Shown one piece after another: positions 26,675 through 46,616 of a stretch of 64,000 nucleotides of DNA; position 1 is the first letter of the stretch; every line of letters starts with the position of its first letter. Below the pieces are notes generated by a model. It did not search any database. It was not told where the DNA came from and worked only from the letters and a program-made list of their open reading frames with translations. Position numbers and translations under genes: made by a program. The DNA is from Gemmatimonadota bacterium (lineage in GTDB: Bacteria; Gemmatimonadota; Gemmatimonadetes; Longimicrobiales; Gaopeijiaceae): contig JAJDVT010000086.1 in the NCBI GenBank assembly GCA_022826005.1, positions 1 to 64,000 on the forward strand, read 5' to 3'.

Positions 26675-28245
26675 GCGCCCCCGCCCGCAGCCACGCACGG
26701 GGCGCGGCCCCCGTCGTCGGAGCCAAGGCCTGGGCCGTGCACCGTGTCACCAGGCGTGACGCGGTCGCCGGCCTGAGCGTCGCCCTTCTCATCATCCCCC
26801 AGAGCATGGCCTACGCCGAGCTGGCGGGCCTCCCGTCCGTGCACGGTCTCTACGCCTCGGCGCTGCCACTGCTGGCGGCTGGCTTCTTCGCCTCGTGCCC
26901 CTACCTGCAGACGGGCCCGGTGGCCCTCACCGCGCTGCTGACCCACGGCGCCCTCGTGACCATTGCCACGCCCGGGAGTCCCCAGTATACGAGTGCGGCG
27001 GCGCTCCTCGCGCTCATCGTGGGCCTGGCCCGGCTGGCCATCGCCGCGTTGCGTGCCGGGAAGGTCACCTACCTGATGTCGCAGCCCGTGGTACGAGGAT
27101 TCACCTCCGGCGCGGCCATCCTCATCCTCCTCTCGCAGTTCCCCTCCACACTGGGAATGGCCGCCGTGGGCGAGAGCGGGCTGGTCGGCAACACCCTTCA
27201 CGTTCTCGGCACACCGGCGTCATGGAACCTCGCCGCCCTCGCGCTCACCGTCCTTACCGTCACGATCACGCTCTTCGCCCGCCGCATCCACCCCCTCTTT
27301 CCCGGCGCGCTGGTCGCCGTGCTCGGCGGAGTGCTCTTCTCGGTTCTGGCCGGATACCGCGGGCCGATCGTCGGCGACATCCCGGGATCGCTGCCACCCG
27401 TCACCTTCGCCCTGCCCTGGGGGCTGCTGCCCGTCCTCTTCCTTCCCGGCGTGGTCATCGCGCTGGTGGGCTTTGCCGAAACGACCGCCATCGCCCGCTC
27501 CTTCGCGACCGTCGACCGCGCCCGCTGGAGCCCGGACCGGGAGTTCCTGGCCCAGGGGGCTGCCAACGTGATGTCCGGCGTCTGCGGGGGAATGCCGGTC
27601 GACGGATCCCTGTCGCGGAGCAGCCTGAACCACCTTTCGGGCGCGGGCACCCGCTGGTCCGGAGCGATCACCGGCATCGCAGTGCTGATCTTTCTGCCCT
27701 TCGCGGGGGTGCTCACGTCGCTCCCGAAGGCGGTGCTGGCCGGCATCGTGATCGCCGCGGTGGGCGGACTGGTGAAGCCCCGCATGCTGGTGAACGTGTG
27801 GACGCTGTCGCGGATCCAGGCGCTGGTCGTCTGGCTCACCCTCGCGCTGTGCCTGCTGCTGGCCCCGCGGATCGAACAGGCCCTGCTGGTCGGCATCCTC
27901 GTCTCGCTTGCCATCCACGTGTGGCAGGAGCGGCGAGCCGGATTCGACAGCTGGATGGAGGGCGACGTGCTGCACCTGGAGGTGATGGGGATCCTCTGGT
28001 TCGCATCGGCGCCGCGTCTGGAGGAGGCGCTGATGAGCCGCCTCACGGACACGGAGAGCGTCTCCGAGATCATCATTCACCTGGAAGGACTGGGCCGGAT
28101 CGATCTGACCGGGGCGCTCGTCCTCAAGCGGGTGGTCGAAGAGACGAACGCGCTGGGAATCCCGGCGTCGCTGAAGGGCGTACCGCCTCAGGCGCGCGAG
28201 CTCATCGACAACATCTTCGGGCTGCCCCCGGCGACGTATCTATAG
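26671..28245 (+). CDS. SulP family inorganic anion transporter with STAS domain
   Basis: A 524-residue membrane transporter. The SulP signature is present: AGLSVALLIIPQSMAYAELAGLPSVHGLYAS (about 30-60), then 10-12 helices and PVDGSLSRSSLNHLSGA near 310, typical of the substrate-binding half. The STAS domain is the C-terminal 100 residues (VLHLEVMGILWFASAPRLEE...LEGLGRIDLTGALVLKR). The start GTG overlaps the TorD-like stop, putting it in the Mo-enzyme operon. In that context, an anion such as sulfate is a plausible product or substrate of the enzyme. The stop codon shares the hexamer CTATAG with the convergent thioredoxin gene. Confidence 0.92.
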   Translation: MSAPARSHARGAAPVVGAKAWAVHRVTRRDAVAGLSVALLIIPQSMAYAELAGLPSVHGLYASALPLLAAGFFASCPYLQTGPVALTALLTHGALVTIATPGSPQYTSAAALLALIVGLARLAIAALRAGKVTYLMSQPVVRGFTSGAAILILLSQFPSTLGMAAVGESGLVGNTLHVLGTPASWNLAALALTVLTVTITLFARRIHPLFPGALVAVLGGVLFSVLAGYRGPIVGDIPGSLPPVTFALPWGLLPVLFLPGVVIALVGFAETTAIARSFATVDRARWSPDREFLAQGAANVMSGVCGGMPVDGSLSRSSLNHLSGAGTRWSGAITGIAVLIFLPFAGVLTSLPKAVLAGIVIAAVGGLVKPRMLVNVWTLSRIQALVVWLTLALCLLLAPRIEQALLVGILVSLAIHVWQERRAGFDSWMEGDVLHLEVMGILWFASAPRLEEALMSRLTDTESVSEIIIHLEGLGRIDLTGALVLKRVVEETNALGIPASLKGVPPQARELIDNIFGLPPATYL

Positions 28246-29595
28246 CGGGCCGGCACCCTCGCCGGTTCCCGGGGTGGCCTCGCCGGTCCCAGGGGCAGCC
28301 TCGCAGGCTCCCGTGTCAGGCTCGTCCGCCTCCGCCCCCGCTTCCGCTTCCGCCTCCGCCGCCTCAAGCTGCTCGCGCCACGTCTTGTCCTTGAGCAGCC
28401 GGTCCAGCGCTGCAAAGAGTGAGCCCCCGCGCCTGTCGATATGCCGGATCACGCCCTCCTCGTCGAGGACGTAGGTCGTGGGCCACCCGTCCACTCTCCA
28501 GTGCGTCGCGATCGGCCCGTCCGTTGCGACCAGCCCGGCATCCGGCTGGCTGTGGCCGTCCCACCAGGTGCGGTAGTCGAGGCGCTCCCGCTCCTTCGCC
28601 TGCACGATCGTGTCCAGCACGGCATCGCTGTTCACGCCCAGCAACGCGACATCCCGGTCCCTGAACGCCTCCAGCATCGCGCGCTGGTACGGATACTCCG
28701 CCCGGCAGGGACCGCACCACTGCCCGGAGAAGAGCAGGGCCACGACCTTGCCTCTGTAGTCCTCCAGCGCGAACTCGATCCCCTCGGTGTCCTTGCCGAC
28801 GATGTTGGGGGCGACGCGCCCCGGCGTCAGGTTCTCGACCACGAACCGATGCTCGCCGAGCGTCTCCACGTTGTCGGGGTATCTTTCGCCGAGTTCGTCC
28901 AGGTACGCAACGATGCGCGCGGTCTGATCGTCGCTGACGATGCCCCGCCGAAGGCGGAAGACCATGTTCCGCAACGGAAGCCGGGCATGGTCCTCGAAAC
29001 CGCCGGTGGACTCGGGAAGATTCAGTATGATGTCGAGTTCCGCCAGCATTCGGTTCACCTGCGCGTCCTCGAAGGGCTCGCCCGGGTCCGGGTAGCGTCT
29101 TCCGTCGGAGCGAAACAGGAGGACGAAGTTGGCGAAATCGGGAATCTCCGGCGAGTGTCCGGCGTAGCTGTCGACGAGCCGCTTTCGGTGTTCGATTGTC
29201 GAGCGGCTTTCCGGGTGTTCCTTGGCCGGGGCGTCCAGGTAGGCCCTGATCCGCTCCTGCTGCTCTTCGCTGACCACGGGCACCGCCAGCCGGCGCATGA
29301 AGTTCCACAGATGAACGTCCGCCTCGCGTTCGAAGTCCGCGAGGGTTTCCTCCGCCGTCATGGCAACTTCCAGGGCCGCCATCAACTCGTCGAGGCTCTT
29401 GTCGGAGAGGGGGGCGCCTCCGTTGTCGAACTGCTCGGCCGGCGGGAACCACATCCGCGCCGCCGCGACCGGGATTTCAAGCGCGGGGTCCCCGGCGCCG
29501 TCCTCGACCGAGGGGACTCCCGTGCGTCCGGGAAGCAGCACTCCCAGGCCGAATCCAACAATCAAGGCGCAAACTGCTGCAACGGGCTTTCGCAT
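28240..29595 (-). CDS. TlpA-like thioredoxin A, membrane-anchored, two helical modules
   Basis: 451 residues from ATG 29595. Residues 6-25 are the membrane anchor; most of the protein is extracytoplasmic. Two related helical modules lie at about 55-140 (FEREADVHLWNFMRRL...EQQERIRAYLD) and 168-252. The thioredoxin domain spans about 257-410 with active site WCGPC at 293-297, the conserved LDYRTWWDGHSQPDA and a cis-Pro in GWPTTYVLD. The last 40 residues form an acidic, Gly/Glu/Ala/Thr-rich tail. It is the last gene of the array in transcription order. The redox role (thiol reductase/TlpA-type) follows from the fold; the module function is unknown. Confidence 0.9.
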   Translation of the reverse strand: MRKPVAAVCALIVGFGLGVLLPGRTGVPSVEDGAGDPALEIPVAAARMWFPPAEQFDNGGAPLSDKSLDELMAALEVAMTAEETLADFEREADVHLWNFMRRLAVPVVSEEQQERIRAYLDAPAKEHPESRSTIEHRKRLVDSYAGHSPEIPDFANFVLLFRSDGRRYPDPGEPFEDAQVNRMLAELDIILNLPESTGGFEDHARLPLRNMVFRLRRGIVSDDQTARIVAYLDELGERYPDNVETLGEHRFVVENLTPGRVAPNIVGKDTEGIEFALEDYRGKVVALLFSGQWCGPCRAEYPYQRAMLEAFRDRDVALLGVNSDAVLDTIVQAKERERLDYRTWWDGHSQPDAGLVATDGPIATHWRVDGWPTTYVLDEEGVIRHIDRRGGSLFAALDRLLKDKTWREQLEAAEAEAEAGAEADEPDTGACEAAPGTGEATPGTGEGAGPL

Positions 29596-29803: not shown

Positions 29804-31126
29804 TCACTTCCGGTTGCCTTCTTCGGACACCGGCTGGGCGGGTTGGGCCGGAACGATCAGCGCCCGCACTGGGCGGTTCGGGGAAACCGTCGTTCCGGTC
29901 CGCTCCTGGTACTCGCGCATCCGCTGGTCCCTCAGCAACTGGTCGACAGCGTCGATCAATGCACCGCCGCGCTTGTTGACGAAGCGGATCACGCCCTGAT
30001 CGTCGATCACATAGATCGTGGGCCATCCGCGCACGCCCCACTGGGTCGCGATCGGCCCGTCGGCGGCCACGGCCTCGGCGTCCGGCTGACTGTGGCCGTC
30101 CCACCAGGTCCGGTAGTCGAGGCCCTCGTCCTCCTTGGCGCGCTGAATCGTCTCCAGCCTGGCGTCGCTGTTGACGCCCAGCAGCGCGACCTCCTCTTCG
30201 TCGAAGATGTCCAGCATGGCGCGTTGATACGGGTACTCCCCGCGGCAGGGGCCGCACCACTGCCCGGAGAAGATCAGGGCGACGACCTTGCCGCGGTAGT
30301 CCTCCAGCGCGAACTCGGCGCCCTCGGTGTCGGTGCCCACGATGTTGGGCGCGACCCTGCCCGGCGTCAGGTTCTCGACCAGGAAGCGCTGCCGGCCCAG
30401 GAACTCGGCAGCATCCGGGTGCGCCTCCATGAGATTGTCGAAGTACGTGCCGATGCGTGCGGCCTGTTCCTCGTCGACCTGCCCCCGCTGCAGGCGGCCG
30501 CCGAAGCGCCAGAAGGGGGTTCCGGCCTCTCGCTCCAGGTGAGGCGCCACCTCGGGAAGGTTGACGATGGCGTCGAGGGTGCCGAGCAGTTCTTCCACCT
30601 GGGCGTCCGTGAAGGGCTCGCCGTTGTTGGGATAGCGGTCGCCGTCGCCGAACAGCTGCAGGTCGAAGGTCAACGGCGGGGCTTCGGGCCTGGACGTGGC
30701 GTAGGACGGGAGGAAGGTTCGCCTGTACTCGATCACCTCGCGATGGTCGGGATGCGCTTCGGCCAGCTCGTCCAGGTACGTCCGGATTTGTTCCATCTGC
30801 GCGTCGGTGACTGAGGGAACGGCCAGCCGGCGGGTCAGGCTCCAGAGGTGGATGTCCGCCTCCCGCTCGAAGTCGGCGAGCGTCGCCTGCGCGGTGAGCG
30901 CCCCGTCGAGCGCCGACATGAGGGCGTCGAAGCGCTCGTCGTCGAGGGGCTCGCCGCCGGTGTCGTAGTCGCTGACCGGCGGGAACCAGGCCTGCTGAAT
31001 CGCCATCGGGAAATCGGCGCCCGGCGCCTCTCCTCCCGCGCCGGCTCCTCGGATGCCGCCGGACAGGACGAACCCGATTCCGATTCCGACTACAGCCGCG
31101 CCTCCCAGGGCCAATGGCTGCCGCAT
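29804..31126 (-). CDS. TlpA-like thioredoxin B, membrane-anchored, two helical modules
   Basis: 440 residues. ATG 31126 has AAGGAG seven bases upstream. Anchor at about 7-25, modules at about 52-137 and 165-248 (ATLADFEREADIHLWSLTRRL and HLEREAGTPFWRFGGRLQRG are the matching cores), thioredoxin domain 254-405, WCGPC at 290-294. The surrounding words NIVGTDTEGAEFALEDYRG and YRTWWDGHSQPDA are almost the same as in paralogues A and C, pointing to recent duplication. A 208-base gap separates it from A, with no clear promoter. The C-terminal extension is short and basic, unlike A and C. Confidence 0.9.
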   Translation of the reverse strand: MRQPLALGGAAVVGIGIGFVLSGGIRGAGAGGEAPGADFPMAIQQAWFPPVSDYDTGGEPLDDERFDALMSALDGALTAQATLADFEREADIHLWSLTRRLAVPSVTDAQMEQIRTYLDELAEAHPDHREVIEYRRTFLPSYATSRPEAPPLTFDLQLFGDGDRYPNNGEPFTDAQVEELLGTLDAIVNLPEVAPHLEREAGTPFWRFGGRLQRGQVDEEQAARIGTYFDNLMEAHPDAAEFLGRQRFLVENLTPGRVAPNIVGTDTEGAEFALEDYRGKVVALIFSGQWCGPCRGEYPYQRAMLDIFDEEEVALLGVNSDARLETIQRAKEDEGLDYRTWWDGHSQPDAEAVAADGPIATQWGVRGWPTIYVIDDQGVIRFVNKRGGALIDAVDQLLRDQRMREYQERTGTTVSPNRPVRALIVPAQPAQPVSEEGNRK

Positions 31127-31190: not shown

Positions 31191-32552
31191 TCAGCCCGAT
31201 TGGTTTCCGTCGTTGCCCTTCCCGGTGACTTTCGACTTCGCCCCGGCGTCTTCGCCCTCCTTTTCGCTGCTTACCTCCGCCTCCGCCTCCCCAGGCTCTT
31301 CCGCCTTGGCCTCTGCGGCCTCCCTCTGCGCTTCGAAATCCCGCATCGTCTTGTCCACGAGCAGCTTGTCTACGGCGGCGACGAGTGCTCCCCCCCGCTT
31401 GTCGGCGTGCCGGATCACGCCGTCCTCGTCGATCACGTAGATCGTGGGCCAGCCCACCACGTTCCACTGCTTCGCGATCGGCCCTTCCGCTGCGACCAGA
31501 TCCGCGTCGGGCTGGCTGTGTCCGTCCCACCAGGTGCGGTAGTCGAGTCGCTCCCGCTCCTTCGCCTGCACGATCGTGTCCAGCACGGCGTCGCTGTTCA
31601 CGCCCAGCAGCACGACGTCCCTGTCCTTGAACGCCTCCAGCATGCCGCGCTGGTACGGATACTCCCCGCGGCACGGCCCGCACCACTGCCCGGAGAAGAT
31701 CAGCGCGACGATGTTGCCCCGGTAGTCCTCGAGCGTGAACTCGACGCCCTCGGTGTCCTTGCCCACGATGTTGGGCGCCACCTTGCCGGGCATGAGGTTC
31801 TCGATCACGAAGCGCTGCTGCTCGATCGCCTCGGCGCCCTCGGGGTACTTCTCCTCGAGTTCGTCCAGGAAGGCCACGACGCGGTCGGTCTGGTCGTCGC
31901 TCAAGACGCTCCTTTGCAGGCGGTTGCCCATCTGCCACAGGGGAATCCGCAGCTCCGTCTCGAAATCGCCGGTGGATTCGGGGAGATTGGCGGTCACCTC
32001 GAGCTCCGCCAGCATTCGATCCACCTGCCAGTCCTCGAAAGGTTCGCCCTCCTCCGGATAGCTCCCCTCCGCCGCCTCGAACAGCGTGACGAAGCCGGCG
32101 AATCCCGGCATCGACGGCATGTGCGACGCGTAGCTGTCGACCAGCACCTTGCGCCGTCCGATCACTTCGCTGTCCGGGTGCTCTTCGGCCAGGGCGTCCA
32201 GGTACGCGTGGATCCGCTCCTTCTGCTCGTCGCCGATCTCGGGGACCGAGAGGCGGCGCATGAAGTTCCACAGGTGCAGGTCCGCCTCGCGTTCGAAGTC
32301 GGCGAGGGTCTCCTCCGCCGTCATGGCCACTTCCAGCGCGGCCATCAGCTCCTCGAAGCTCTCGTCCGAGAGCGGGTCGCCTTCGTTGTCGAACTGGTCG
32401 GCCGGCGGGAACCACAGCTTGGCCGCGGCGGCGGGAACGTCCAGCTCCCAATCGCCGCCCTCGGAGCCGAGGGCCCCGCTGCTGCCGGCCACGAGCACGC
32501 CCAGGCCGAAGGAAACGACGATGGCGCAGGTGATTGCCAGGGGTTTACGCAT
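31191..32552 (-). CDS. TlpA-like thioredoxin C, membrane-anchored, two helical modules
   Basis: 453 residues: anchor 6-24, module 1 about 52-137, module 2 about 163-248, thioredoxin domain about 253-405 with WCGPC at 290-294, then a Glu/Ala/Lys-rich tail from about 408. Both modules share the pattern (D/E)-x2-P-L/F-x-D...LADFE/GDFE-x-E...LW-x2-x3-RL-x4-(L/I)-x-(D/E)-(D/E)-Q-x2-R(I/V)-x-A-(Y/F)-LD-x-L-x-E-x-(Y/H)-P. The gene is very like A along the whole length. It follows thioredoxin D after 91 bases; that gap carries GTCATGTTCT, a 10-base sequence shared with the TIR elements. Confidence 0.9.
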   Translation of the reverse strand: MRKPLAITCAIVVSFGLGVLVAGSSGALGSEGGDWELDVPAAAAKLWFPPADQFDNEGDPLSDESFEELMAALEVAMTAEETLADFEREADLHLWNFMRRLSVPEIGDEQKERIHAYLDALAEEHPDSEVIGRRKVLVDSYASHMPSMPGFAGFVTLFEAAEGSYPEEGEPFEDWQVDRMLAELEVTANLPESTGDFETELRIPLWQMGNRLQRSVLSDDQTDRVVAFLDELEEKYPEGAEAIEQQRFVIENLMPGKVAPNIVGKDTEGVEFTLEDYRGNIVALIFSGQWCGPCRGEYPYQRGMLEAFKDRDVVLLGVNSDAVLDTIVQAKERERLDYRTWWDGHSQPDADLVAAEGPIAKQWNVVGWPTIYVIDEDGVIRHADKRGGALVAAVDKLLVDKTMRDFEAQREAAEAKAEEPGEAEAEVSSEKEGEDAGAKSKVTGKGNDGNQSG

Positions 32553-32643: not shown

Positions 32644-33942
32644 TCAGTTCGCCTTCTTCGCGGGTTGGGGCCGGCTGGCCGGTATGACCATTCCCGAGGG
32701 TGCGCTGATCACGCTCCGCATGCGCATCTCGGTGTAGAGCTCGTCCAGAGCGGCGATGAAATCGCCCCCGCGCTTGCCGACGAACCGGATGACGCCTTCG
32801 TCGTCGAGGATATAGATGCTGGGCCACCCGCTCACGTTCCAGGCGGTCGCGATCGGCCCTTCGGTGGCTGCCGCCTCCGCGTCCGGCTGGCCGTGGCCGT
32901 CCCACCAGGTGCGGTAGGGCAGATTCTCGTCGATCTTGGCCTGGCGGGCGGTTTCCAGCTCCGCGTCGCTGTTGACTCCGAGGAGGACGATCGGCCGGTC
33001 GCCGTAGTTCTCGAGCACGAACCGGTGGTACGGATACTCGCCCCGGCAGGGACCGCACCACTGCCCGGTGAAGATCACCGCCACGATGTTGCCGCGGTAC
33101 TCCTCCAACGAGAACTCGACGCCCTCGGTGTCCTTGCCGACGATGTTGGGCGCGACGTTGCCGGGGATCAGGTTCCTGACCATGAAGGTCTCATGGGCGA
33201 GCATCTCGGCGGCGTCGGGGTGCTCGGCCTTGAGCTCTTCGTAGTAGGCGGCGACCCGCTCGACCTGCTCCGGTGTCAAGCGCCCGCGCTGCAGCCGGCC
33301 GCTGAAGCGCCACAGGTGCGTCCCGGCCTCCCTTTCGAAGTCGGCCAGCGTCTCGGGGATGTTGAGCCCGGCGTCGAGCCGCGCGATCAGTTCGTCCACC
33401 TGCGCGTCCTCGAAGAACTCTCCGCCCGTGTCGTATTCGTCGACATCGCCGAAGATCATCAGGGAACCGGACAGGGACGGGAGACCGCCCCCCGGCCACG
33501 GCCGCGAGTAGCTGTCGACCAGCCCGGCCCGCCGGCTGATCATGCCTCCGTGCTCGGGATGCTCCTCGGCCAGCGCCGCGAGACGGGCCGTGATCCGGTC
33601 CTTCTGCTGCTCGCTGATTTCGGCCGGCCCCAGGCGGCGAATGAAGTTCATGAGGTGGACTTCCGCCTCCCGCTCGAAGTCGGCCAGCGTCTCGTCGGCG
33701 GTCATCGCTTCGCCGAATGCGGTCATGAGCGCCTCGAACTTCTCGTCGTCGAGGGGCTCGCCGTCGGTCTTGTAGTCGCCTACGGGCGGGAACCATGCCT
33801 TCGTGGCCGCGGCGGGCAGCGTCCACCGGGAATCTTCCGTGTCCGCGGTGTCCGGTCCCGACCCTCCGAAGACGCCGGGGGCCACGAGCCCGCCTACGAA
33901 CGCGACGACGATTGCGCCGGTCACTGCCGCTGACTTCTGCAT
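32644..33942 (-). CDS. TlpA-like thioredoxin D, membrane-anchored, two helical modules
   Basis: 432 residues, anchor at about 6-26. This member shows the duplication best: TADETLADFEREAEVHLMNF near residue 81 and NIPETLADFEREAGTHLWRF near 193 are nearly the same sequence. WCGPC is at 295-299, followed by YRTWWDGHGQPDA and GWPSIYILDDEGVIRFVGKRGG. It lies 95 bases downstream of the dsbD beta/gamma gene on the same strand and may share its transcript. No acidic tail is present; the protein ends with a Pro/Lys-rich segment. Likely a periplasmic thiol-disulfide oxidoreductase. Confidence 0.9.
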   Translation of the reverse strand: MQKSAAVTGAIVVAFVGGLVAPGVFGGSGPDTADTEDSRWTLPAAATKAWFPPVGDYKTDGEPLDDEKFEALMTAFGEAMTADETLADFEREAEVHLMNFIRRLGPAEISEQQKDRITARLAALAEEHPEHGGMISRRAGLVDSYSRPWPGGGLPSLSGSLMIFGDVDEYDTGGEFFEDAQVDELIARLDAGLNIPETLADFEREAGTHLWRFSGRLQRGRLTPEQVERVAAYYEELKAEHPDAAEMLAHETFMVRNLIPGNVAPNIVGKDTEGVEFSLEEYRGNIVAVIFTGQWCGPCRGEYPYHRFVLENYGDRPIVLLGVNSDAELETARQAKIDENLPYRTWWDGHGQPDAEAAATEGPIATAWNVSGWPSIYILDDEGVIRFVGKRGGDFIAALDELYTEMRMRSVISAPSGMVIPASRPQPAKKAN

Positions 33943-36066: not shown

Positions 36067-36075
36067 ATTCATCTC

Positions 36076-37838: not shown

Positions 37839-40373
37839 CTATCCCGGACCCGGCTCCAATATCGCGTCGATGCGCACCCGCACGTCCATCAGGTGCGCCT
37901 GGCTCACCCGGTGGGCCATCCCGCGGTTCAGCCGCTGCAGGATGTCGTCCCGCAGCGTGCGCAGCTGTTCCCGCACCAGCGGGCGGATGTCTGACGTACC
38001 GATGCTGGGGCCGGTGACAAAGAAGGGCGTGGGAGCCGCGGGAGCGTCCGTCATCAGGGCCTCCATGCGCTCCAGATAGGCCCGCTGGAGGGCGCGCCGG
38101 TAGGGGCCCACCTCGTTGACGCGCGCAAGGTCCTCCCAAACCGCCGCGCGCACATCGTCCAGGAACTCGGCCAGGGGGTAGGCGTCCTCGGGCTCGGTCA
38201 CCTCCAGCTCGGCCAGCGACGACATGCGGGTGGTCGAAAGCAGCTGGTTCAGCACGGACCGCTGCAGGTTCGATATGTTCGCCACGCTGGCGCCGGTCGG
38301 ACCGATGCGCTTCAGGATCTCGGGGTCGTTCAGCCAGGTGGGCGCCGTGAACGCCTCCCGCGCGAGCCACGCCATCGCCCGTTTCTGCTCGGCGCGCGGT
38401 AGCCCATCGAAGACGGCCCCGTCCTGGTCGGCGGTCTTGAGGTCGACGTGCACGCCCCCGACGATCGTCACCACGTGCCGCACGTAGCGCGACCACTGGC
38501 TCACCGCCTCCCCGTAGATCTCGGCCAGGTCCGTGTAGTCCTCGCCGGGCCGGGTCGTCCACTCCACCAGGTTGGGCACGATGCGGCGCAGGTTCGCCAT
38601 CCCGTACTGGTTGGCGCGCACCATGTCGTCGCCCATGTCCTCGGTCTGCGCGCGCGGGTCGCTCACGCCGAGTCCGCCTTGCGGCAGGTACTTGTACATG
38701 CGGTCGTGGGCCTTCTCCACGATCCAGCGGTTGAGGGTGGGGATCTCGTCTTCGGGGGTTTCGGCGTTCGGCAGCACCCGGTACCCCCAGTTCACCGAGT
38801 AGTGGTCGTAGACGCCGATCCGCCGCAGGAAGTCCTTCGGATCGAGCCCGTCCTCGGGCTGTGCGATATAGTTCTGGCGCGCGTAGTCCATGATCGTCGG
38901 CGCGACCCCCATCCTGCTGGCGAAGGTCTGGGAGCGCAGCGAGTCCACCGGGTACGACGAACTCGCGACCATGTTGTGCGGCAGCCCGATCGCGTGACCG
39001 ATCTCGTGGGTGATGACCTGTTCCATCGCCTCCTCCATCAGCTCGTCGGTGAGCGGCAGCTGGCGGGCGTCGGGGTTGGCGGCGCCGGTCTGCACCATCA
39101 TCCAGTTCCGGTACGACCGCATGTGGTTGTGATACCAGACGATGTCCGACTCGATGATCTCGCCGGTGCGCGGGTCCGAGGTGCTCGGGCCCACCGCGTT
39201 GCGCGTTTCGCTCGCCGACCAGCGGGCCACCGAATAGCGCACGTCCTCGGGGTCCCAATCGGGGTCCTCCTCCTTCGACGGGGCCTCCAGCGCGACGATC
39301 GCGTTGCTGAATCCCGCCGTCTCGAAGGCGGGCTGCCAGTTCTCGATCCCGCGCTTGACGGCGTCCACGTAGCGTTCAGGCGTCGCCGGGTCGACGTAGT
39401 AGGTGATCGGTTTGACCGGGTCGACCACCTCGCCGCGGGCGTACGCCTCCGGATCGGAGGGTTCCAGGCGCCAGCGGCGGATGAAGGTCTCGGTTGCGGC
39501 CTTCTGTTCATTCAGGCCGTAGTTGATGCGTTCGACCGTGAAGTAGCCGACGCGCGGGTCGGCGTGGCGGGGACGCATCGGTTCGGCGGGCAGGAGGACC
39601 AGCGACTGGTTCATCTGCATCGTGACGGTGTTGGCTTGCGGGTCCGAGGGGGGCGCACCGGCGTCGTAGGTCAGGGTGTGGCGCACGTTCACGTTGAGCG
39701 GGTAGCTGCGCATGCGGCTGATGAAGCTGCGATCCGGGTCGAGGCGGCGGACCTGGTAGGAGCTGCGCTGCGCGGAACTGAGGCCCGACAGGTGCCGCGT
39801 GTCGCCCGCGAAGAAGTCGGTGATGTCGATCACCGAGCTGGCCGAGTCGGCGCCGCGCGCCTCGATCTCCCAGGACGCGAGGATCGGCGGGAAGTAGTTC
39901 GCCTGAACCGACGCCGCGATCGCCAGGGTGTCGTCCGCGACGGCCACGGCGGAGTACTTCCTCAGCATTATCCGGTCGCCGCGCCGCTCGAACCGCACCA
40001 TCTGGCGATTGGTGGCCGCCCCGGCCGACTGGAATCCGCCCATCCCGTCCATCTTCCCGGCGATGCGGCTGATCAGGAGCATGTCGCGGCCCAGGAGGGA
40101 GTCCGGGATCTCGAAGAGATAGTCCTCGTCCCTGCTGTGAACGGTGAAGAGGCCGTCGTCGGACTCGGCGTCCTCTATGACCTCTTCGTAGGTCGGAGGC
40201 TCGTCGCTGTTTCCGCCGCCCGAACCTCCGCCTGGACGGGCTGCGCCGCCGCCGGGACCTGGGGCAGCCGGCGCGGCGTTGGAGCCCCCGCCGCCGAAGC
40301 AGGCGGTGCCGGCGGTGGTGGCGATGAGAAGCAGGATGGACAATCTGGAGGAGTCGTGCGCTGCCGAATTCAT
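37839..40373 (-). CDS. secreted zinc-dependent metalloprotease (DUF5117/DUF4953-like)
   Basis: An 844-residue protein. The signal ends in a lipobox-like TAGTAC (C25), followed by a Gly/Pro-rich linker. The first half (about 55-320) corresponds to the DUF5118/5117 part: DEDYLFEIPDSLLGRDMLLISRIAG and ...DITDFFAGDTRHL. The catalytic domain has HEIGHAIGLPHN at 456-467 (zinc ligands H456 and H460, catalytic E457, third ligand H466), as in metzincins. It has no propeptide cysteine switch that I can see. It sits upstream of redoxin J in the array region and may process or degrade envelope proteins. Members of this family are common in Bacteroidota and Gemmatimonadota. Confidence 0.88.
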   Translation of the reverse strand: MNSAAHDSSRLSILLLIATTAGTACFGGGGSNAAPAAPGPGGGAARPGGGSGGGNSDEPPTYEEVIEDAESDDGLFTVHSRDEDYLFEIPDSLLGRDMLLISRIAGKMDGMGGFQSAGAATNRQMVRFERRGDRIMLRKYSAVAVADDTLAIAASVQANYFPPILASWEIEARGADSASSVIDITDFFAGDTRHLSGLSSAQRSSYQVRRLDPDRSFISRMRSYPLNVNVRHTLTYDAGAPPSDPQANTVTMQMNQSLVLLPAEPMRPRHADPRVGYFTVERINYGLNEQKAATETFIRRWRLEPSDPEAYARGEVVDPVKPITYYVDPATPERYVDAVKRGIENWQPAFETAGFSNAIVALEAPSKEEDPDWDPEDVRYSVARWSASETRNAVGPSTSDPRTGEIIESDIVWYHNHMRSYRNWMMVQTGAANPDARQLPLTDELMEEAMEQVITHEIGHAIGLPHNMVASSSYPVDSLRSQTFASRMGVAPTIMDYARQNYIAQPEDGLDPKDFLRRIGVYDHYSVNWGYRVLPNAETPEDEIPTLNRWIVEKAHDRMYKYLPQGGLGVSDPRAQTEDMGDDMVRANQYGMANLRRIVPNLVEWTTRPGEDYTDLAEIYGEAVSQWSRYVRHVVTIVGGVHVDLKTADQDGAVFDGLPRAEQKRAMAWLAREAFTAPTWLNDPEILKRIGPTGASVANISNLQRSVLNQLLSTTRMSSLAELEVTEPEDAYPLAEFLDDVRAAVWEDLARVNEVGPYRRALQRAYLERMEALMTDAPAAPTPFFVTGPSIGTSDIRPLVREQLRTLRDDILQRLNRGMAHRVSQAHLMDVRVRIDAILEPGPG

Positions 40374-40591
40374 GGTTTCTCCCGGTTGCGGCCGCGGCCT
40401 CGGCGGCGGCTTCGTTGGACTGCCGGTTCAACATGCGACCGGCGGGCCCGGCGTGAAAGCCCGCTCCTTTCCCCGCGGGCCCTGGCGGCACTACGTTGCG
40501 CGCCTGGCGGTGGCGGGTGAGCAGGCCTCGGTCGACACCCGCCCCGGCACAACCCGGTACACCAGTCGTCAGCGACCAAGGAGCCCCGAAC

Positions 40592-41161
40592 ATGCGCACG
40601 CTGTCCACACTCGGCCTCGCCGCCGCCCTGATCACGATCGGCTGGGTGGCGGGCCCACCCACTTCTCCCGGCCCCGGGGCGCCCCGGGACTCCGAGGCTC
40701 CCGACAACCCGCCCGCCACCTACATCTCCGCCGCCGACATCCTGGCCACGATCGGGAACGCCCCCGCCGGGCGGGTCAGCGACCAGCAGATCCGGCACAT
40801 CGACGCGGGCGGGCACAACGTGGGCGTGGGCGTGGTGCAGCGGCCGCCCAGCACGACGCTCGGCGCGATCCAGCACCACAACCAGACCGAGGTGTACTAC
40901 GTGGTCTCGGGGCGGGGGACGCTGGTGACGGGCGGCGAACTCACGAATGCCCGGGCGCTCCCCGCAGAGGGCGCGACGGTGCGCACCCTCACCGGGCCGA
41001 GTTCGGTGGGCGGCATCGACGGCGGCGAGAGCCGCGAGATCGGCCCGGGCGACATGCTGATCATCCCGGCGGGGTCGCCGCACGGGTTCAGCGAGGTCAC
41101 CGAGACGATCACCTACATCGTGGTGCGGGTGGATCCGGAGCAGCTGGTGGAGCTGAAGTAG
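40592..41161 (+). CDS. exported cupin-domain protein
   Basis: A 189-residue single-domain cupin with an N-terminal signal (about 4-20). Cupin motif 1, HHNQTEVYYVVSGRG (about 90-104), gives two His and a Glu metal ligands; motif 2, PGDMLIIPAGSPHGF (about 154-168), gives the third His. ATG 40592 has AAGGAG eight bases before it. It is the only plus-strand gene inside the thioredoxin array and is divergent from the metalloprotease. The enzymatic role is unknown; cupins range from isomerases to dioxygenases. The TIR element starts 21 bases after its stop. Confidence 0.85.
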   Translation: MRTLSTLGLAAALITIGWVAGPPTSPGPGAPRDSEAPDNPPATYISAADILATIGNAPAGRVSDQQIRHIDAGGHNVGVGVVQRPPSTTLGAIQHHNQTEVYYVVSGRGTLVTGGELTNARALPAEGATVRTLTGPSSVGGIDGGESREIGPGDMLIIPAGSPHGFSEVTETITYIVVRVDPEQLVELK

Positions 41162-41182: not shown

Positions 41183-41435
41183 CTAGCAGTCCGTGGATAA
41201 GCCCGCGCGAGCACCGAGAGCGGCGAGGCGCCGGGCTGGCAAGGCGCGACGAAGGGCGAATAGCGGAGCTATTTGCCCGAGGAGCAACGCAGAGCGGTGC
41301 TTCGGAGGCTCGAAGAGTAAAGAGAACATGACGTTGTGCAATGTTTTCTTGACAGTGCGAATACGTGAGCACCGTGGCCAGCCTGGATGCATTCGCCGCT
41401 CGAATGCCGCGGGGGTTTTATCCACGGGCTGCTAG
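41183..41435. mobile_element. 253-bp element with 18-base terminal inverted repeats (MITE-like)
   Basis: Left end CTAGCAGTCCGTGGATAA (41183-41200) and right end, the inverse complement CTAGCAGCCCGTGGATAA (41418-41435), match at 17 of 18 bases. Inside, GGGCGAATAGC-GGA-GCTATTTGCCC (41255-41279) forms an 11-base stem with one G-T pair, enclosed by a second pairing, AGCACCG (41210-41216) with CGGTGCT (41295-41301). No transposase is encoded; short open frames on both strands begin M-D-K because of the TIR. The right end supplies the stop codon of thioredoxin E. Relatives occur at 20690-20836 and 17645-17692. Confidence 0.7.
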
Positions 41436-42712
41436 TTGGCGCCCTCGTCCTCTCCGGTTTCGGCGTCCGTCGTGGCGACCGGCGCCGCCGCTTGCGCCTC
41501 GTACTCGCGCATCCGCAGCTCGCTGAGCATCCTGCCCACCGTCGCGATGAGGCTGCCGCCGCGCGTGCTCCTGACGTGGCGAATCACGCCCTCTTCGTCG
41601 AGGACGTAGATTGCCGGCCAGCCGGTCACGCCCCAGGCGGTGGCGATCGGCCCGCTGGTCGACACCTCGGCGTGGCCGTCCCACCAGGTGCGGTACGACG
41701 GCGCCTTCCCGCTGGCCTTCGCTGCGCGGATCGTCTCCACGTCGCCGTCGCTGTTGACCCCCAGCAGCACGAGCGGGTCGTCCTTGTGCTGCTCCAGGAT
41801 GAAGTGGTGGTACGGATACTCGCCGATGCAGGGCCCGCACCATTCCCCGGAGAAGATCAGGACGACGATGTTGCCCCGGTAGTCCTCCAATGCGAACTCG
41901 ACGCCCTCGGTGTCCTTCCCGACGATGTTCGGGGCCATCCGCCCGGGGGTGAAGCTCTCGACCCGCAGCAGGGCCTTGTCGATCGCCTCGGCGGCTTCGG
42001 GGTGGCGGGCCTTCAGTCCGTCGAAGAACTCCACGATGCGCGCGTGCTGCCCGTCGCTCACGAACCCGTTCTGGAGCCGGTTGGCGAAGAGCGAGAAATG
42101 GGTGGCCGACTCCCTCGCGAAGTCGTCCGCCGCATCCGGTATTCCGACCGCCGCGTCGAGGGCGCCGATCAGTCCATCGATCTGGGCATCGGAAAACGGC
42201 TTGTCGCCGGGGTTGAACCAGTCCTGGTAGGTGTGGTTCACGATCACCGACGACATTGTGGGCGGATCCGTGGACGGCACCGCATACCTGTCGATGTGTG
42301 TCGTCGCGTTGCCCGTGATCGCTTCGGCGTGGTCCGGGTGGCGCTCCCCGAGTTCCATCAGGTAGGCGTAGACCCGGGCCGTCTGTTCTTCGGTGGCCGC
42401 AGGGACCGCGAGCCGGCGGAAGAAGTTCCACAGGTGGACGTTGGCTTCGAGCTCGATGTCGGCGAGGGTCTCGTCGGCGGTCATCGCCTCGTCGAGCGCG
42501 GCCAACAGCGCGTCGAAGCGCTCGTCGTCCAGGGGCTCGCCACCGGTGTCGTAGTCGCTCAGCGGCGGGAACCAGACCTGGGTCGCGGCGGCGGGGAGAT
42601 CGATCGGCGGGTGGGCGCTGTCGCTGCCCGCGCCCGATCCGCTCAGCGAGATGACCAGCCCCAACGCGAAGGAAACGATGATTGCGCCGGCAATCGGCAG
42701 TGGTTTGCGCAT
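41432..42712 (-). CDS. TlpA-like thioredoxin E, membrane-anchored, two helical modules
   Basis: 426 residues: anchor 6-24, module 1 about 52-135 (ETLADIELEANVHLWNFFRRL), module 2 about 170-248 (DFARESATHFSLFANRLQNG), thioredoxin domain 253-410, WCGPC at 291-295 with an unusual I after the motif (WCGPCIGEYPYHH). In the conserved WWDG region the QPDA motif is replaced by HAEVST. The stop codon TAG lies at 41434-41432, within the right end of the TIR element, so the insertion may have changed the native C-terminus. It is 9 bases after the stop of F in transcription order. Confidence 0.9.
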   Translation of the reverse strand: MRKPLPIAGAIIVSFALGLVISLSGSGAGSDSAHPPIDLPAAATQVWFPPLSDYDTGGEPLDDERFDALLAALDEAMTADETLADIELEANVHLWNFFRRLAVPAATEEQTARVYAYLMELGERHPDHAEAITGNATTHIDRYAVPSTDPPTMSSVIVNHTYQDWFNPGDKPFSDAQIDGLIGALDAAVGIPDAADDFARESATHFSLFANRLQNGFVSDGQHARIVEFFDGLKARHPEAAEAIDKALLRVESFTPGRMAPNIVGKDTEGVEFALEDYRGNIVVLIFSGEWCGPCIGEYPYHHFILEQHKDDPLVLLGVNSDGDVETIRAAKASGKAPSYRTWWDGHAEVSTSGPIATAWGVTGWPAIYVLDEEGVIRHVRSTRGGSLIATVGRMLSELRMREYEAQAAAPVATTDAETGEDEGAN

Positions 42713-42721
42713 GATTGAATC

Positions 42722-44005
42722 CTAGTCGTTCGTGTCGCTTTCCGCGTCAGTGTCCGTCGCGACCGCCGCAGCCTGCTCCGCCTCGAACCTGGCGCGGCGT
42801 ATGTCGATCACCATGTCGTCGAGCGTGGCGAGCAGGTCACCGCCCCGCTTGTTGATGTGGAGGATCGCGCCGTCCTGATCGATCACGTAGATCGTGGGCC
42901 AGCCGAACACCTCCCAGGCGGTGGCGATCGGCCCTTCCGTCGCGGTGATCTCGGCGTCCGGCTGGCTGTGGCCGTCCCACCAGGTGCGGTAATCCGGCGC
43001 TTCGCCCCGGGCCTTCGACGCCAGGATCACCTCGGGGTCGGCGTCGCTGTTGACGCCGAGGAAGACAACCGGGTCGTCCTTGTACTGCTCCATGGCGAAG
43101 CGGTGGTAGGGGTATTCGCCGCGGCAGGGCCCGCACCATTCGCCCGAGAAGACGAGCACCACAATCTTGCCGCGGTACTCCTCCAGCGAGAACTCGGCAC
43201 CGTCCAGATCCTTGCCGACGGTGCGCTGGGCCACGCGGCCCGGGAGCAGGTATTCGATGTAGTGGCGCCGCTCGTCGACCACGTCCGCCAGTTCGGGGTG
43301 CTTCTCGGCGAATGCGTCGAAGTGGGCCAGCACGCGCTCGGTCTGTTCGTCGCTGATCCGTCCAGATTGCAGGCGCTGGGTGAAGCCCCGGAGCACGACT
43401 CCCGCCTCCCTCTCGAAGTCGTTGACCGTCTCCGGAAGCTCCAGCATGGCGTCGAACCCGGCCAGCATTCGATCGATCCACGCGTCTTCAAAGACCCCTT
43501 CCGGGGGATACGGGCCGTCGGGGTAGACGTGCGACCGCACGGACGCAGTGAAGGAAGGCACGACGGGATAGGCCCGGCCGTAAACGCCGAGCATCGAGAC
43601 CTGCCGGTTGATCAGGCGCTCGTGCTCCGGATACTGCTCGACCAGACCGGTAAGGTAGGCGGAGGCCCTTTCGGTCTGTTCCGCCGACAACTCGGGGATC
43701 GCGATGCGCCGGAAGAAGCCCTGCACGTTGGGCTCGATGCTGCGTTCGATGTCGGCGAGCGTCTCCTCGGCGTTCATCGCCTCGTCGAGCGTCGCCATGA
43801 GCGCGTCGAAGCGTTCGTCGTCCAGCGGCTCCCCTTCGTTCTCGAATTCCTGTACGGGAGGGTACCACATCTTCCACGCCGTCGCGGGGACGTCGATCGA
43901 CGGGGCCGCGCCTTCCGTTGCGGAGCCGTCCACGTTTCGGGACACAAGGAACCCGATGCCGACACCGACGACGAGTGCCGCGGCCGCGGCCATGGGCTTC
44001 TGCAT
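42722..44005 (-). CDS. TlpA-like thioredoxin F, membrane-anchored, two helical modules
   Basis: 427 residues from ATG 44005, with GGAGG eight bases before it. Anchor 5-22; module 1 (about 52-137) is more diverged than in the others (ADIERSIEPNVQGFFRRIAIP), module 2 about 170-250 (DFEREAGVVLRGFTQRLQSGRISDEQTERV). Thioredoxin domain with WCGPC at 290-294, YRTWWDGHSQPDAE and GWPTIYVIDQDGAILHINKRGG. The usual APNIVGKDTEG before the domain is here AQRTVGKDLDG. It precedes E, 9 bases apart, so the two are surely cotranscribed. Confidence 0.9.
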   Translation of the reverse strand: MQKPMAAAAALVVGVGIGFLVSRNVDGSATEGAAPSIDVPATAWKMWYPPVQEFENEGEPLDDERFDALMATLDEAMNAEETLADIERSIEPNVQGFFRRIAIPELSAEQTERASAYLTGLVEQYPEHERLINRQVSMLGVYGRAYPVVPSFTASVRSHVYPDGPYPPEGVFEDAWIDRMLAGFDAMLELPETVNDFEREAGVVLRGFTQRLQSGRISDEQTERVLAHFDAFAEKHPELADVVDERRHYIEYLLPGRVAQRTVGKDLDGAEFSLEEYRGKIVVLVFSGEWCGPCRGEYPYHRFAMEQYKDDPVVFLGVNSDADPEVILASKARGEAPDYRTWWDGHSQPDAEITATEGPIATAWEVFGWPTIYVIDQDGAILHINKRGGDLLATLDDMVIDIRRARFEAEQAAAVATDTDAESDTND

Positions 44006-44153: not shown

Positions 44154-45119
44154 TCAGCGCCCCCCGATGAGGCGGGTTCCCTCCGCGAGCAATTCGTCGA
44201 CCGCTTTCATAATGGCGTCCCCCCGCAGATCGACGTACCGGATGACGCCATTTGCGTCCAGGATGTAGGTCGTCGGCCACGACCAGACGATCCAGGACTG
44301 GGCGATCGGGCCCCGGGTCGCCTCGTCCCACCAGGTGCGGTAGTGGAGTCCTTCGCGCTCCTTGGCTTCGAGCACCCGTTCGAGTTCGTCGTCGCTGTTG
44401 ACGCCCAGAAGCACCACGTTCCTGCCCTCGTAAAGCTCCAGCATCTTGCGCTGGTGGGGGTATTCCGCGTGGCAGGGGGCGCACCACTCGCCCGTGAAGA
44501 AGAGCACCACGATGTTGCCGCGGTACTCCGCGAGGTCGAATTCGACCCCGTCGAGGTCCTTGCCGACGATCTCCGGCGCGGCCTTTCCGGGCGTCAGGTT
44601 CTCCACCAGGAACCGTTGCCGGGTGATCATTCTCGTGGCCTCGGGGTGCCGCTCGAGAAGGTTGTCCATGTAGCCGGCGACGCGGTCGGTCTGCCCGGGG
44701 GTGAGGAGCGTCTTCTGGAGCGCGCGGGTGAAGGTCCGAATGTGGTTGCGCCCCTTGTCGTGGATATCGTAGGCGTTCATGGGGATGAGCAGCAGGGAGT
44801 CGAGCCGGGAGATCCGCCGGTCGACCTCGTCGTCCGGCAGTTCGGCCGGGGGGACGAAGAGATCAGCCGGATCGGCGGCAGGAACGGGCTGGCCGGTGGG
44901 AAGTGGGTCGGAAGCGGCCGGGTCGGCGGCGGTCTGGTCCGCGGCAGTCAGGCTCGCGGCAGTCGTATCTTCGGGGGCCGGATCCTCGGCGGCCCGGCCG
45001 GCGTCCGGCGGGTCAGCGGGTCGCGGTGCGCTGTCGATCCGGTGGCTGGAGCAGGCTCCCGACAGCCCGGCCAGGAGGAAGCAGAGCCACGCCGTCGTGG
45101 TGTTCGTTTTGCGCAGCAT
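44154..45119 (-). CDS. TlpA-like thioredoxin G, lipoprotein with one helical module
   Basis: 321 residues from ATG 45119. Signal residues 9-22 end in the lipobox LSGAC (C23). A long Asp/Ala/Pro-rich linker follows (25-95), then a single helical module (about 97-172: DEVDRRISRLDSLLLIP...PGQTDRVAGYMDNLLERHPEAT), and the thioredoxin domain with active site WCAPC at 212-216 instead of WCGPC. The WWDG motif is WWDEATRG. The start overlaps the 3' end of thioredoxin H by 107 bases. Lipidation would place it on the outer leaf of the inner membrane or the inner leaf of the outer membrane. Confidence 0.88.
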   Translation of the reverse strand: MLRKTNTTTAWLCFLLAGLSGACSSHRIDSAPRPADPPDAGRAAEDPAPEDTTAASLTAADQTAADPAASDPLPTGQPVPAADPADLFVPPAELPDDEVDRRISRLDSLLLIPMNAYDIHDKGRNHIRTFTRALQKTLLTPGQTDRVAGYMDNLLERHPEATRMITRQRFLVENLTPGKAAPEIVGKDLDGVEFDLAEYRGNIVVLFFTGEWCAPCHAEYPHQRKMLELYEGRNVVLLGVNSDDELERVLEAKEREGLHYRTWWDEATRGPIAQSWIVWSWPTTYILDANGVIRYVDLRGDAIMKAVDELLAEGTRLIGGR

Positions 45120-45777
45120 GGGCAAGTCGTCTTGTCCGTTCGTCAAGGAGCCCGTCCACCGCCTCGATGATCTCTTCCTTGTGCTTGTCAACGTGGCGAA
45201 TGACGCCGTTCTCGTCCAGGATGAACACCGTCGGCCACGACCGGACCCACGCCCGGTTGATGGGGCCAAAGGGCGATTCGTCCCACCAGGTCCGGTAGTG
45301 CAGCCCTTCGCGCTCCTTGGCCTTCAGAACCGTTTCGAGCTCCATGTCGCTGTTCACTCCGAGCAGGACGACATTCCGGTCCCTGTAGCGCTCGAGCATC
45401 TGGCGCTGGTAGGGGTATTCCTCGCGGCAGGGCCCGCACCACTCGCCCGAGAAGATCAGGACGACAATGTTGCCGCGATAGTCCTCCAATTCGAACTCGA
45501 TCCCCTCGGTGTCCTTGCCCACGATGTTCGGCGCGACCTTGCCCGGCTGCAGACTCTCCGGCGGGTGCCTCGGCACATCCGGGTCATTGTTGAAGCGCCA
45601 GGTCAGGGGCGCGCCGGGCCGGGTGCGCGCCTCGCCCGGCTGGGCAGCGGAATCCCGAACCGCTGCAAGGGGTTCATCGACCCGAAGACCCTGGGCGCCA
45701 TTCCCTGTGGAGCACGCGGCCGCCAGCGGGATCAGCATGCAGTACCACGGTGTCCGTATCCGCAAGTGTTTCGTCAT
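45013..45777 (-). CDS. TlpA-like thioredoxin H, lipoprotein without helical module
   Basis: 254 residues. The signal ends in LAAAC (C22). Only about 55 linker residues separate it from the thioredoxin domain, which starts at SLQPGKVAPNIVGKDTEG (about 75); WCGPC is at 113-117 and WWDESPFG takes the place of WWDGHSQ. The start ATG overlaps the stop of I (ATGA). The last 40 residues (from about RRLAHAAQ) are not conserved in the paralogues and overlap the 5' end of G by 107 bases, so the original stop was probably lost and the frame extended into the next gene. Confidence 0.88.
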   Translation of the reverse strand: MTKHLRIRTPWYCMLIPLAAACSTGNGAQGLRVDEPLAAVRDSAAQPGEARTRPGAPLTWRFNNDPDVPRHPPESLQPGKVAPNIVGKDTEGIEFELEDYRGNIVVLIFSGEWCGPCREEYPYQRQMLERYRDRNVVLLGVNSDMELETVLKAKEREGLHYRTWWDESPFGPINRAWVRSWPTVFILDENGVIRHVDKHKEEIIEAVDGLLDERTRRLAHAAQNEHHDGVALLPPGRAVGSLLQPPDRQRTATR

Positions 45778-46616
45778 GTCTGGTCCCTCGCGCGCTGTTC
45801 TTCCAGCAGTTCGGCCACCGCCTCGATCATCCCGTCCTTTCGCTTGCCCACGAAGCGGACGACGCCATCGGCGTCCAGGATGAAGGTGCTCGGCCACGCC
45901 CACACGTCCCAGGCCCGCGAGATGGGGCCGGAGGGCGAACCGTCCCACCAGGCTCGGTACGGTGGCGCTTCCCCCGAGGCTTTCGCCTCCCGTATCGTCT
46001 CCAGCTTCGAGTCGCTGTTGACCCCGAGCAGGACGACGTTCTCGTCCTTGTAGGTCTCCATCAGCTTGTTCTGGTAGGGATACTCGGCGCGGCAGGGCCC
46101 GCACCACTCGCCGGAGAAGACCAGCACGACAATGTTGCCCCGGTAGTCCGTGAGCTCGAACTCGACGCCTTCCGTGTCGGTGCCGGCGATGTTCTGCGCG
46201 ACTGCGCCCGGCGTGAGCGTCAACAGGCGCCGCTGCTTGTCGATCATCTCGGCGGACCGGGGATGTTCCTCCTTCACTTCATCCAGGTAGGCGCTGACGG
46301 TCGCAACCTGTTCCGGGGTCACCTGTCCCCGCCGGAGTGCCCAGCGCAGGCCCCCGATGTAGCGGGTCGCTTCGGTCCTGGTGAGCTGGTCGGGCTCGGG
46401 GGGATTCAGCAGCGAGTCCAGCCGCGCGATCAACTGGTCCACCTGGGCGTCCTCCAGCGGGGCGCCGGTGGGGTGATCCGAGACGATGTCGCGAAACTCG
46501 TCGCGCGCAGGGCTGGAGGCCATTCCATCGAGCAGATAGGCTACGTCGAAGCCGCAAGCAGCCACGGCGCAGATGGAGAGGAGGGAAAACCACTTCGCGA
46601 GCGTTCTCTTGTTCAT
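45774..46616 (-). CDS. TlpA-like thioredoxin I, lipoprotein with one helical module
   Basis: 280 residues from ATG 46616. The signal ends AVAAC (C21). One module lies at about 53-130 (APLEDAQVDQLIARLDSLLN...LRWALRRGQVTPEQVATVSAYLDEVKEEHP), then the thioredoxin domain from about 133 with WCGPC at 171-175; the motif before it is AQNIAGTDTEG rather than APNIVGKDTEG. WWDGSPSG follows. This is the first gene of the array in transcription order, coupled to H by an ATGA overlap. It is separated from the gamma-glutamyltransferase by 166 bases that carry a GC hairpin. Confidence 0.9.
   Translation of the reverse strand: MNKRTLAKWFSLLSICAVAACGFDVAYLLDGMASSPARDEFRDIVSDHPTGAPLEDAQVDQLIARLDSLLNPPEPDQLTRTEATRYIGGLRWALRRGQVTPEQVATVSAYLDEVKEEHPRSAEMIDKQRRLLTLTPGAVAQNIAGTDTEGVEFELTDYRGNIVVLVFSGEWCGPCRAEYPYQNKLMETYKDENVVLLGVNSDSKLETIREAKASGEAPPYRAWWDGSPSGPISRAWDVWAWPSTFILDADGVVRFVGKRKDGMIEAVAELLEEQRARDQT

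Follow-up and report, generated by a model that had tools for sequence, protein, structure and literature searches.

Why would a bacterium keep nine closely related exported thioredoxins together, arranged around a split DsbD? This question is raised by a stretch of 64,000 nucleotides from a Gemmatimonadota bacterium of the order Longimicrobiales (family Gaopeijiaceae; assembly GCA_022826005.1, contig JAJDVT010000086.1, positions 1 to 64,000), referred to here as the window. It contains nine paralogous thioredoxin genes, A to I, all on the minus strand (28240-46616) and organized in two blocks, A-D and E-I, between which the split DsbD, a second redoxin, a Met-zincin, and a cupin are encoded. 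The answer proposed here, which we consider fairly probable, is that they belong to a co-inherited accessory module that reduces disulfides outside the cytoplasm, in which one donor, DsbD, serves many diversified anchored reductases.

An earlier note, made from the letters of the window, had described nine paralogues sharing a long signature on one strand, interleaved with DsbD, another redoxin, a zinc protease, and a cupin. This description holds. All nine genes were found on the minus strand, and their alignment contains 46 invariant columns, nearly all within the thioredoxin domain (W-C-x-P-C, GVNSD, YRxWWD, and W-P among them). The domain scan recovered the redoxin, the protease, and the cupin (the latter on the plus strand), and the DsbD is indeed divided into a DsbD_N gene and a DsbD_TM plus Thioredoxin_7 gene, 4 bp apart. 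The translational closeness ascribed to E/F and H/I was also observed, with 9 bp separating E from F and a 4-bp overlap between I and H; H and G overlap by 107 bp. Scans for promoters and terminators gave no signal above that of shuffled sequence. In proteins A-F, a hydrophobic segment at the N-terminus is followed by two helical units and the thioredoxin domain; G and I carry a lipobox and one unit, and H carries a lipobox and no unit. These leaders and lipoboxes agree with the proposed export of all nine proteins, as judged by sequence only.

The count of nine is right for the locus and too low for the genome: the source assembly (G000; 4.85 Mb in 143 contigs, the window being its contig C136) holds 12 family members, three of them elsewhere, on contigs C27 and C69. 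The weakest member has an E value of 3e-51 and the next match in the genome, a redoxin-like protein, one of 5e-9, so that the members form one family and not a collection of unrelated TlpA lineages. Nine of the 12 copies are packed into 18 kb of the 4.85-Mb assembly and the same arrangement is found in related genomes; therefore, the clustering is not due to chance. In the single-contig genome G021, some 280 kb separate two blocks of the array, and one further copy stands alone.

The evidence for co-inheritance comes from 23 genomes of the genus, most of them metagenome-assembled and with the source genome included, in which presence was scored at E 1e-20 for the thioredoxin family, at E 1e-20 or lower for DsbD beta-gamma, and at E 1e-5 or lower for DsbD alpha. 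The family occurs in 11 of the 23, and nothing reaches the cut-off in the other 12. DsbD beta-gamma and alpha are found in the identical 11 genomes and in none of the remaining ones. The co-occurrence check proposed in the earlier note thus yields 11 joint presences and 12 joint absences. The absence calls rest on 12 assemblies that are 86-97% complete, and a single-contig genome is available for each state (G021 with both components, G001 with neither). The nearest family member lies 262-3,818 bp from DsbD in all 11 genomes, and 58 of the 86 listed members are no more than 20 kb away from it, contig breaks being scored as misses. Even the genomes with one thioredoxin, G017 (D type) and G003 (I type), still carry a nearby DsbD. 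The outcome that the earlier note would have taken as a refutation, homologues scattered singly with no DsbD neighbour, was thus not the pattern seen in these genomes, and orthologues hold the same places across species. On a genus tree built from a zincin paralogue, the state changes three times, and both traits change jointly in 3/3 independent pairs. A survey of 395 genomes of the phylum, drawn evenly from a larger group and limited to the scoring of six candidates or fewer in each, found the family in 12, namely the 11 mentioned above and G221.

The paralogues have not been kept as identical copies. A tree of 88 thioredoxin domains, obtained from 89 matching open reading frames (ORFs) after excluding short fragments and dividing fused ORFs, groups the members by array position across species, its root being arbitrary. 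Two further sets of sequences were defined, A2 with all window members except H (eight of nine) and 55 of the 64 fetched sequences, and A3 with six window members and 47 others. The tree that the earlier note called for reveals one family with orthologous groups, and a recent tandem duplication of the whole array was ruled out, as its members are orthologous across species; A and C are the exception and look like a late split. Most members fall into orthologous groups that several species have retained, and they are under purifying selection: when orthologues were compared in 12 pairs, the thioredoxin domain gave dN/dS values of 0.06-0.28 and the N-terminal part values of 0.12-0.41, the latter being higher in 11 of them. 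Among 24 sequences that cover groups A-F and come from five closely related genomes, the identity between paralogues of one genome was 0.67 in the thioredoxin domain, 0.56 in unit 1, 0.40 in unit 2, 0.24 in the linker, and 0.21 in the tail, and the identity between orthologues was 0.92, 0.82, 0.77, 0.77, and 0.68, respectively. This divergence in linker, tail, and unit 2, with orthologues remaining alike, is consistent with the proposal of the earlier note that each thioredoxin might have its own client and that the N-terminal part might set it.

These data bear on the possibility that the family has expanded by birth and death for dosage alone, yielding largely interchangeable periplasmic reductases (for instance, against oxidative stress) with no division of clients. 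Copy number in the genomes bearing the family ranges from 1 to 13, the array of G018 (L032) holds the remnant of a broken copy, and fused double genes are present in G007, G012, and G008, indicating that turnover continues; L071:7137-9824 and L076:2653-5616 are single ORFs with two members fused in tandem. However, orthologues are kept by position under purifying selection and paralogues are strongly diverged beyond the thioredoxin domain, whereas pure dosage would favour near-identical copies, and this makes the dosage explanation rather unlikely.

A different concern is that thioredoxins and DsbD might be gained and lost together through a common insertion site, without any joint function. 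In G002, G006, G010, and G013, a clear empty site is seen, in which the SulP-like gene, the cupin, the zincin, and the gamma-glutamyltransferase (GGT) are present without DsbD or thioredoxin, and in G015 the flanking genes lie on two contigs broken within the zincin, likewise without the module. In genomes without the module, the cupin is found at the opposite side of the zincin. Such sites, together with the fact that the independent changes number three only, are what hitch-hiking would produce. Nevertheless, genomes with the array also carry dispersed members, which would survive the loss of a shared site, yet the 12 genomes lacking DsbD keep none at E 1e-20, and in G003, where the orthologous zincin was not found, the lone I-type thioredoxin still has DsbD 4 kb away. 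We therefore regard hitch-hiking as quite improbable.

As the zincin also occurs at sites without the module, it has to be considered a flanking gene and not a part of it. Both the zincin and GGT were rejected as dithiol clients, since the sole cysteine of each is in the lipobox, which indicates that the clients are not these neighbours. Another candidate, a cysteine-rich exported protein of 165 residues encoded in the G018 array (L032:12626-13123), was discarded as a general client because no homologue appeared in the other fetched genomes.

The thioredoxin domain itself resembles that of ResA. AhpC-TSA is matched with 52-67 bits (cut-off 26) by A, B, D, and F, the four that were scanned, and A-I have no cysteines beyond the CxPC pair if leaders, lipoboxes, and a single residue in the tail of A are set aside. 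The predicted structure of D (pLDDT 86, pTM 0.80) is confident except for the leader and the tail, and its closest structural matches are ResA (2h1b; Z 19.8, rmsd 1.6, 134 residues aligned) and a Bacteroides oxidoreductase (Z 19.8), the rmsd of the pair being 1.6-1.9 over 134-139 residues; ResA is also among the nearest solved structures by sequence. Glu302 of D corresponds to Glu80 of ResA, and a Glu occupies this position (CxPCxxE) in 86 of 89 thioredoxin sites. The W-P motif after the core, an aromatic-Pro that would be the cis-Pro motif, is conserved in 88 of the 89, with F-P in the remaining one. No NCBIfam name, including those of the ResA, DsbE, and TlpA models, passed its cut-off for D, I, the other redoxin, or DsbD; against the ResA model PRK03147, D and I scored 41 and 61 bits (cut-off 170).

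The putative partner is a complete DsbD in terms of its relay. DsbD alpha, encoded as a separate gene, matches DsbD_N with 55 bits (cut-off 25) and holds Cys187 and Cys192 in addition to the lipobox Cys29. DsbD beta-gamma matches DsbD_TM with 103 bits and Thioredoxin_7 with 43 bits (cut-off 27; gamma motif CTNC), and holds Cys22 and Cys145 in beta, followed by Cys376 and Cys379; Cys244 is also present. All six relay cysteines are thus in place across the two genes, and the score of beta-gamma against NCBIfam PRK00293 (110 bits) is far under the cut-off of 330. The split is not general, because in G036 and G038, two genomes of the same order, the alpha and beta-gamma matches share one open frame. 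Moreover, each of the 23 genus genomes has DsbD_TM matches of a different type (two in most, one in G005 and G014), which means that the array DsbD is an extra.

The ResA-like character could also mean that A-I are ordinary reductases of cytochrome c maturation, in the role of ResA or CcmG, merely multiplied. In favour of such a role, no solved structure comes closer in fold than that of ResA, and the proteins have retained the ResA-type CxPCxxE. Against this, 12 of the 23 genomes live without the family and the array DsbD while all keep other DsbD_TM transporters, nine paralogues and a helical module are unnecessary for the reduction of one apo-cytochrome, and no cytochrome assembly family was matched among the 20 window proteins scanned, the name of DsbD_TM aside. 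A cytochrome role is accordingly very doubtful.

These proteins also carry a helical module. Its unit comprises 86 residues in five helices, and two are found in tandem in A-F. Units 1 and 2 of D are homologous (hhalign probability 99.8%, 34% identity over 86 columns), the prediction of D shows two consecutive five-helix sets, and the module modelled alone reaches a pLDDT of 92. Across the orthologue set of groups A-F, 15 positions of unit 1 are invariant. The two-unit form probably goes back to a duplicated unit, because a one-unit, lipoprotein-like member of the family is present in Acidobacteria. None of 53 module sequences matched a Pfam family over its cut-off, the best E value among 25 listed of the 48 weakly matched families being 7e-4 (DUF6176); the best Pfam score for the module of D was 20 bits (DUF4404), with a cut-off of 27. 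Sequences of solved structures gave no significant match to the module, nor did Foldseek (best E 0.6), and the best Z of a second structural comparison (7.8) is within the noise for helical proteins; that a fold is missing from the list of this comparison does not speak against it. It is scarcely credible that this module is the working part (a scaffold, an oligomer, or an envelope-binding element) and the thioredoxin domain an oxidase or isomerase not fed by DsbD, in spite of the confident prediction of the module alone and of the 15 invariant positions, given that H has no module and G and I one copy, so that the thioredoxin domain is the constant part, and that the ResA-type motif and the linkage to DsbD argue for reduction.

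The reading of the locus as a co-inherited reducing module also has to face several observations that weigh against it. The proposal of the earlier note that the system is tied to DsbD is supported by gene co-occurrence, with the restriction that 28 of the 86 listed members were not located within 20 kb of DsbD, breaks between contigs being counted in, and few events stand behind the co-occurrence (three independent pairs, sign test p 0.25, short of significance). When 17 further genomes of the same family and order were searched for DsbD, G036 and G038 proved to have a homologue (53-57%) without the thioredoxin family. A Pseudomonadales relative has a family member and only a distant DsbD match (31%, E 5e-12), and four Acidobacteria genomes hold both components on separate contigs. 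The adjacent zincin and GGT lack client cysteines. For I, the rate of evolution is no higher in the N-terminal part than in the thioredoxin domain (one of the 12 pairs). Finally, only seven positions are fixed within each of the six orthologue groups A-F and at the same time show at least four residues among them; none of the seven is in unit 1, and two are in the thioredoxin domain.

In the reducing module that we favour, the direction and the partners of the electron flow are inferred, as are the membrane topology of the proteins and the choice of clients by the helical module. The order beta, gamma, alpha, thioredoxin is modelled on Escherichia coli DsbD. Electrons would enter via the membrane-embedded DsbD beta and would pass to the fused gamma thioredoxin domain and from there to DsbD alpha, a predicted lipoprotein with a gene of its own, which would reduce the anchored ResA/TlpA-like thioredoxins A-I and the dispersed copies. 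These thioredoxins would have been kept as old paralogues that have diversified. Paralogues differ most in the helical units, linkers, and tails, and it is probably these regions that place or select each thioredoxin for differing targets.

Relatives outside the genus add a further element. In Planctomycetota (G045 and G046), in Bpl_4 (G047), and in G221, a Gemmatimonadota genome of the family of the window and of another genus, thioredoxins related to the array carry an in-frame TGA at the first active-site cysteine (motif FWGxW-TGA-xPCR), with nine sites in eight distinct loci. Both members of G221 have it, and one relative in G046 (L142) has TGC instead. The sites are L050:760 and 1798, L135:10050, L136:9933, L137:1838, L138:3430, L139:3389, L140:4079, and L141:3458. 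About 27 bases past the TGA, a hairpin-capable stretch with the loop GGTC is identical in seven of the eight stretches folded (not in L139), and the folding program drew the GGTC hairpin in six of the eight. SelA is present in 8/8 genomes checked, including the source genome. These TGA codons are probable selenocysteine sites. The relatives share with the array the extended signature of the thioredoxin domain (32-48% identity); they differ in the TGA, in their N-terminal regions, and in a Met at the position of ResA Glu80, and none of six TGA-containing thioredoxins reached an NCBIfam cut-off.

In G045 and G047, a TGA is also found in DsbD gamma, at the first cysteine of the FTGxTCxNCR motif (L143:5375 and L144:6059, minus strand); the RNA that follows the TGA is not the same there. 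The presence of TGA in both components fits partners changing chemistry together. Selenocysteine in the TlpA and DsbD superfamilies is already known, since a 2026 review (PMC13188914) lists a TlpA selenoprotein with a UGC motif, the rhodanese/DsbD-fusion-like TsoB, and other thioredoxin-like selenoproteins. If selenocysteine is confirmed here, the Sec and Cys forms of one hub-and-reductase pair become comparable.

The family also reaches other phyla. The Pseudomonadales relative (54% identity, chromosome OY282460.1) is nested among Gemmatimonadota members with moderate support (83/90), which hints at a transfer between phyla, and the Acidobacteria members form a long branch in the same part of the tree.

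The coordinates of the array and of its flanks are collected in Table 1.

Table 1. Features of the thioredoxin array and its flanks in the window.
Feature	Position	Strand	Description
Thioredoxin A	28240..29595	-	N-terminal anchor, two helical units, ResA/TlpA-like domain; orthologue in G008
Thioredoxin B	29804..31126	-	Anchor, two units, thioredoxin domain
Thioredoxin C	31191..32552	-	Anchor, two units, thioredoxin domain
Thioredoxin D	32644..33942	-	Orthologue in 10 of 11 family-bearing genus genomes; structure predicted
Helical unit 1 of D	33505..33768	-	Residues 59-146
Helical unit 2 of D	33169..33429	-	Residues 172-258
Active site CGPC of D	33046..33057	-	Cys296-Cys299; Glu302 corresponds to ResA Glu80
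DsbD beta-gamma	34038..35429	-	DsbD_TM and C-terminal thioredoxin domain (Thioredoxin_7)
DsbD alpha	35434..36072	-	Predicted lipoprotein, own gene; DsbD_N
Other redoxin	36143..37543	-	Own N-terminal region; CxxC at 353/356; outside the array family
Met-zincin	37839..40373	-	DUF5118-DUF5117-DUF4953; predicted lipoprotein, flanking
Cupin protein	40496..41161	+	Flanking
Thioredoxin E	41432..42712	-	Anchor, two units, thioredoxin domain
Thioredoxin F	42722..44005	-	Anchor, two units, thioredoxin domain
Thioredoxin G	44154..45119	-	Predicted lipoprotein, one unit, CAPC active site
Thioredoxin H	45013..45777	-	Predicted lipoprotein, zero units; 3' end overlaps G by 107 bp
Thioredoxin I	45774..46616	-	Predicted lipoprotein, one unit
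Gamma-glutamyltransferase (GGT)	46783..48627	-	Flanking
SulP-like membrane protein	26671..28245	+	Opposite strand, other array flank

The product of the last gene is presumably akin to SulP sulphate permeases, a name given on its sequence alone. It is adjoined by a group encoding an Fe-S/NrfD protein, a molybdopterin oxidoreductase, and a nitrate-reductase-delta-like protein (20974-26674), which is mostly kept beside the locus with the module present or absent. Nitrile hydratase-like genes lie between the zincin and GGT in G002, G006, G010, and G013; such genes (L039:2376-4240; also L061-L065) are found near the zincin in module-less genomes and in G017, and also inside the array in G007 and probably in G021, the family having been checked on the G007 copies. 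None was found among the window proteins scanned.

Near six of ten dispersed family loci, beta-propeller-like proteins with a DSAGVRIV-type motif are encoded, as on contig C69 of the source genome (L010:5766-7052 and 11491-12717) and in L084, L092, L093, L094, and L096. A search for this motif revealed no propeller in the array loci scanned, though the array of G007 does include a propeller-like gene that lacks it (L029:2838-4010). The adjacency may be due to chance, because each genome has 76-166 such matches (nine genomes searched, no more than 150 candidates being scored in seven of them), with fewer in the two searched genomes that lack the module.

Several close relatives are, to judge from the names of their bins, presumably of sponge origin, and the source bacterium probably lives in marine sponges. 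According to PMC10581226, Longimicrobiales include host-associated Gemmatimonadota of sponges and corals; in this paper, thiol and DsbD are absent and disulfide appears once. The words thioredoxin, disulfide, and TlpA are absent from PMC10469786. Titles and abstract openings from a literature search for TlpA/DsbD paralogue expansion, and for the thioredoxin or disulfide systems of sponge symbionts and of Gemmatimonadota, contained no description of the array.

If the proposed module is real, it offers a natural system for studying how thioredoxins acquire client specificity beyond the cytoplasm, and it would be a candidate trait of Gemmatimonadota that live with sponges. In its widest form, the proposal is of a new, modular kind of extracytoplasmic reducing system, with one dedicated DsbD hub and reductases bearing hitherto undescribed five-helix units for client recognition or placement, which would have been duplicated and diversified in host-associated Gemmatimonadota; the system would be gained or lost whole, and distant relatives of the hub-and-reductase pair in Planctomycetota would perhaps use selenocysteine in both partners. 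This wider view is put forward only tentatively. DsbD-type hubs known so far supply a few general reductases. Here, as many as a dozen diversified anchored reductases, which bear an undescribed helical module, seem to share their inheritance with one hub.

Compared with known systems, the array DsbD has the alpha, beta, and gamma parts and the six relay cysteines of DsbD, although its alpha part is a separate lipoprotein gene and PRK00293 is matched far under the cut-off. As with the pneumococcal Etrx1/Etrx2 pair (PMC3914529), there are multiple surface lipoproteins of the thioredoxin family; the structural matches of the array thioredoxin include Etrx2, the matched chain having no helical module. 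With ResA, TlpA, and CcmG, the array proteins share the thioredoxin fold, the CxPCxxE motif, the W-P after the core, a membrane or lipid anchor, and a nearby DsbD-type transporter. In contrast to them, D and I fall under the NCBIfam cut-offs for ResA, DsbE, and TlpA, and the array adds one or two five-helix units and nine linked paralogues.

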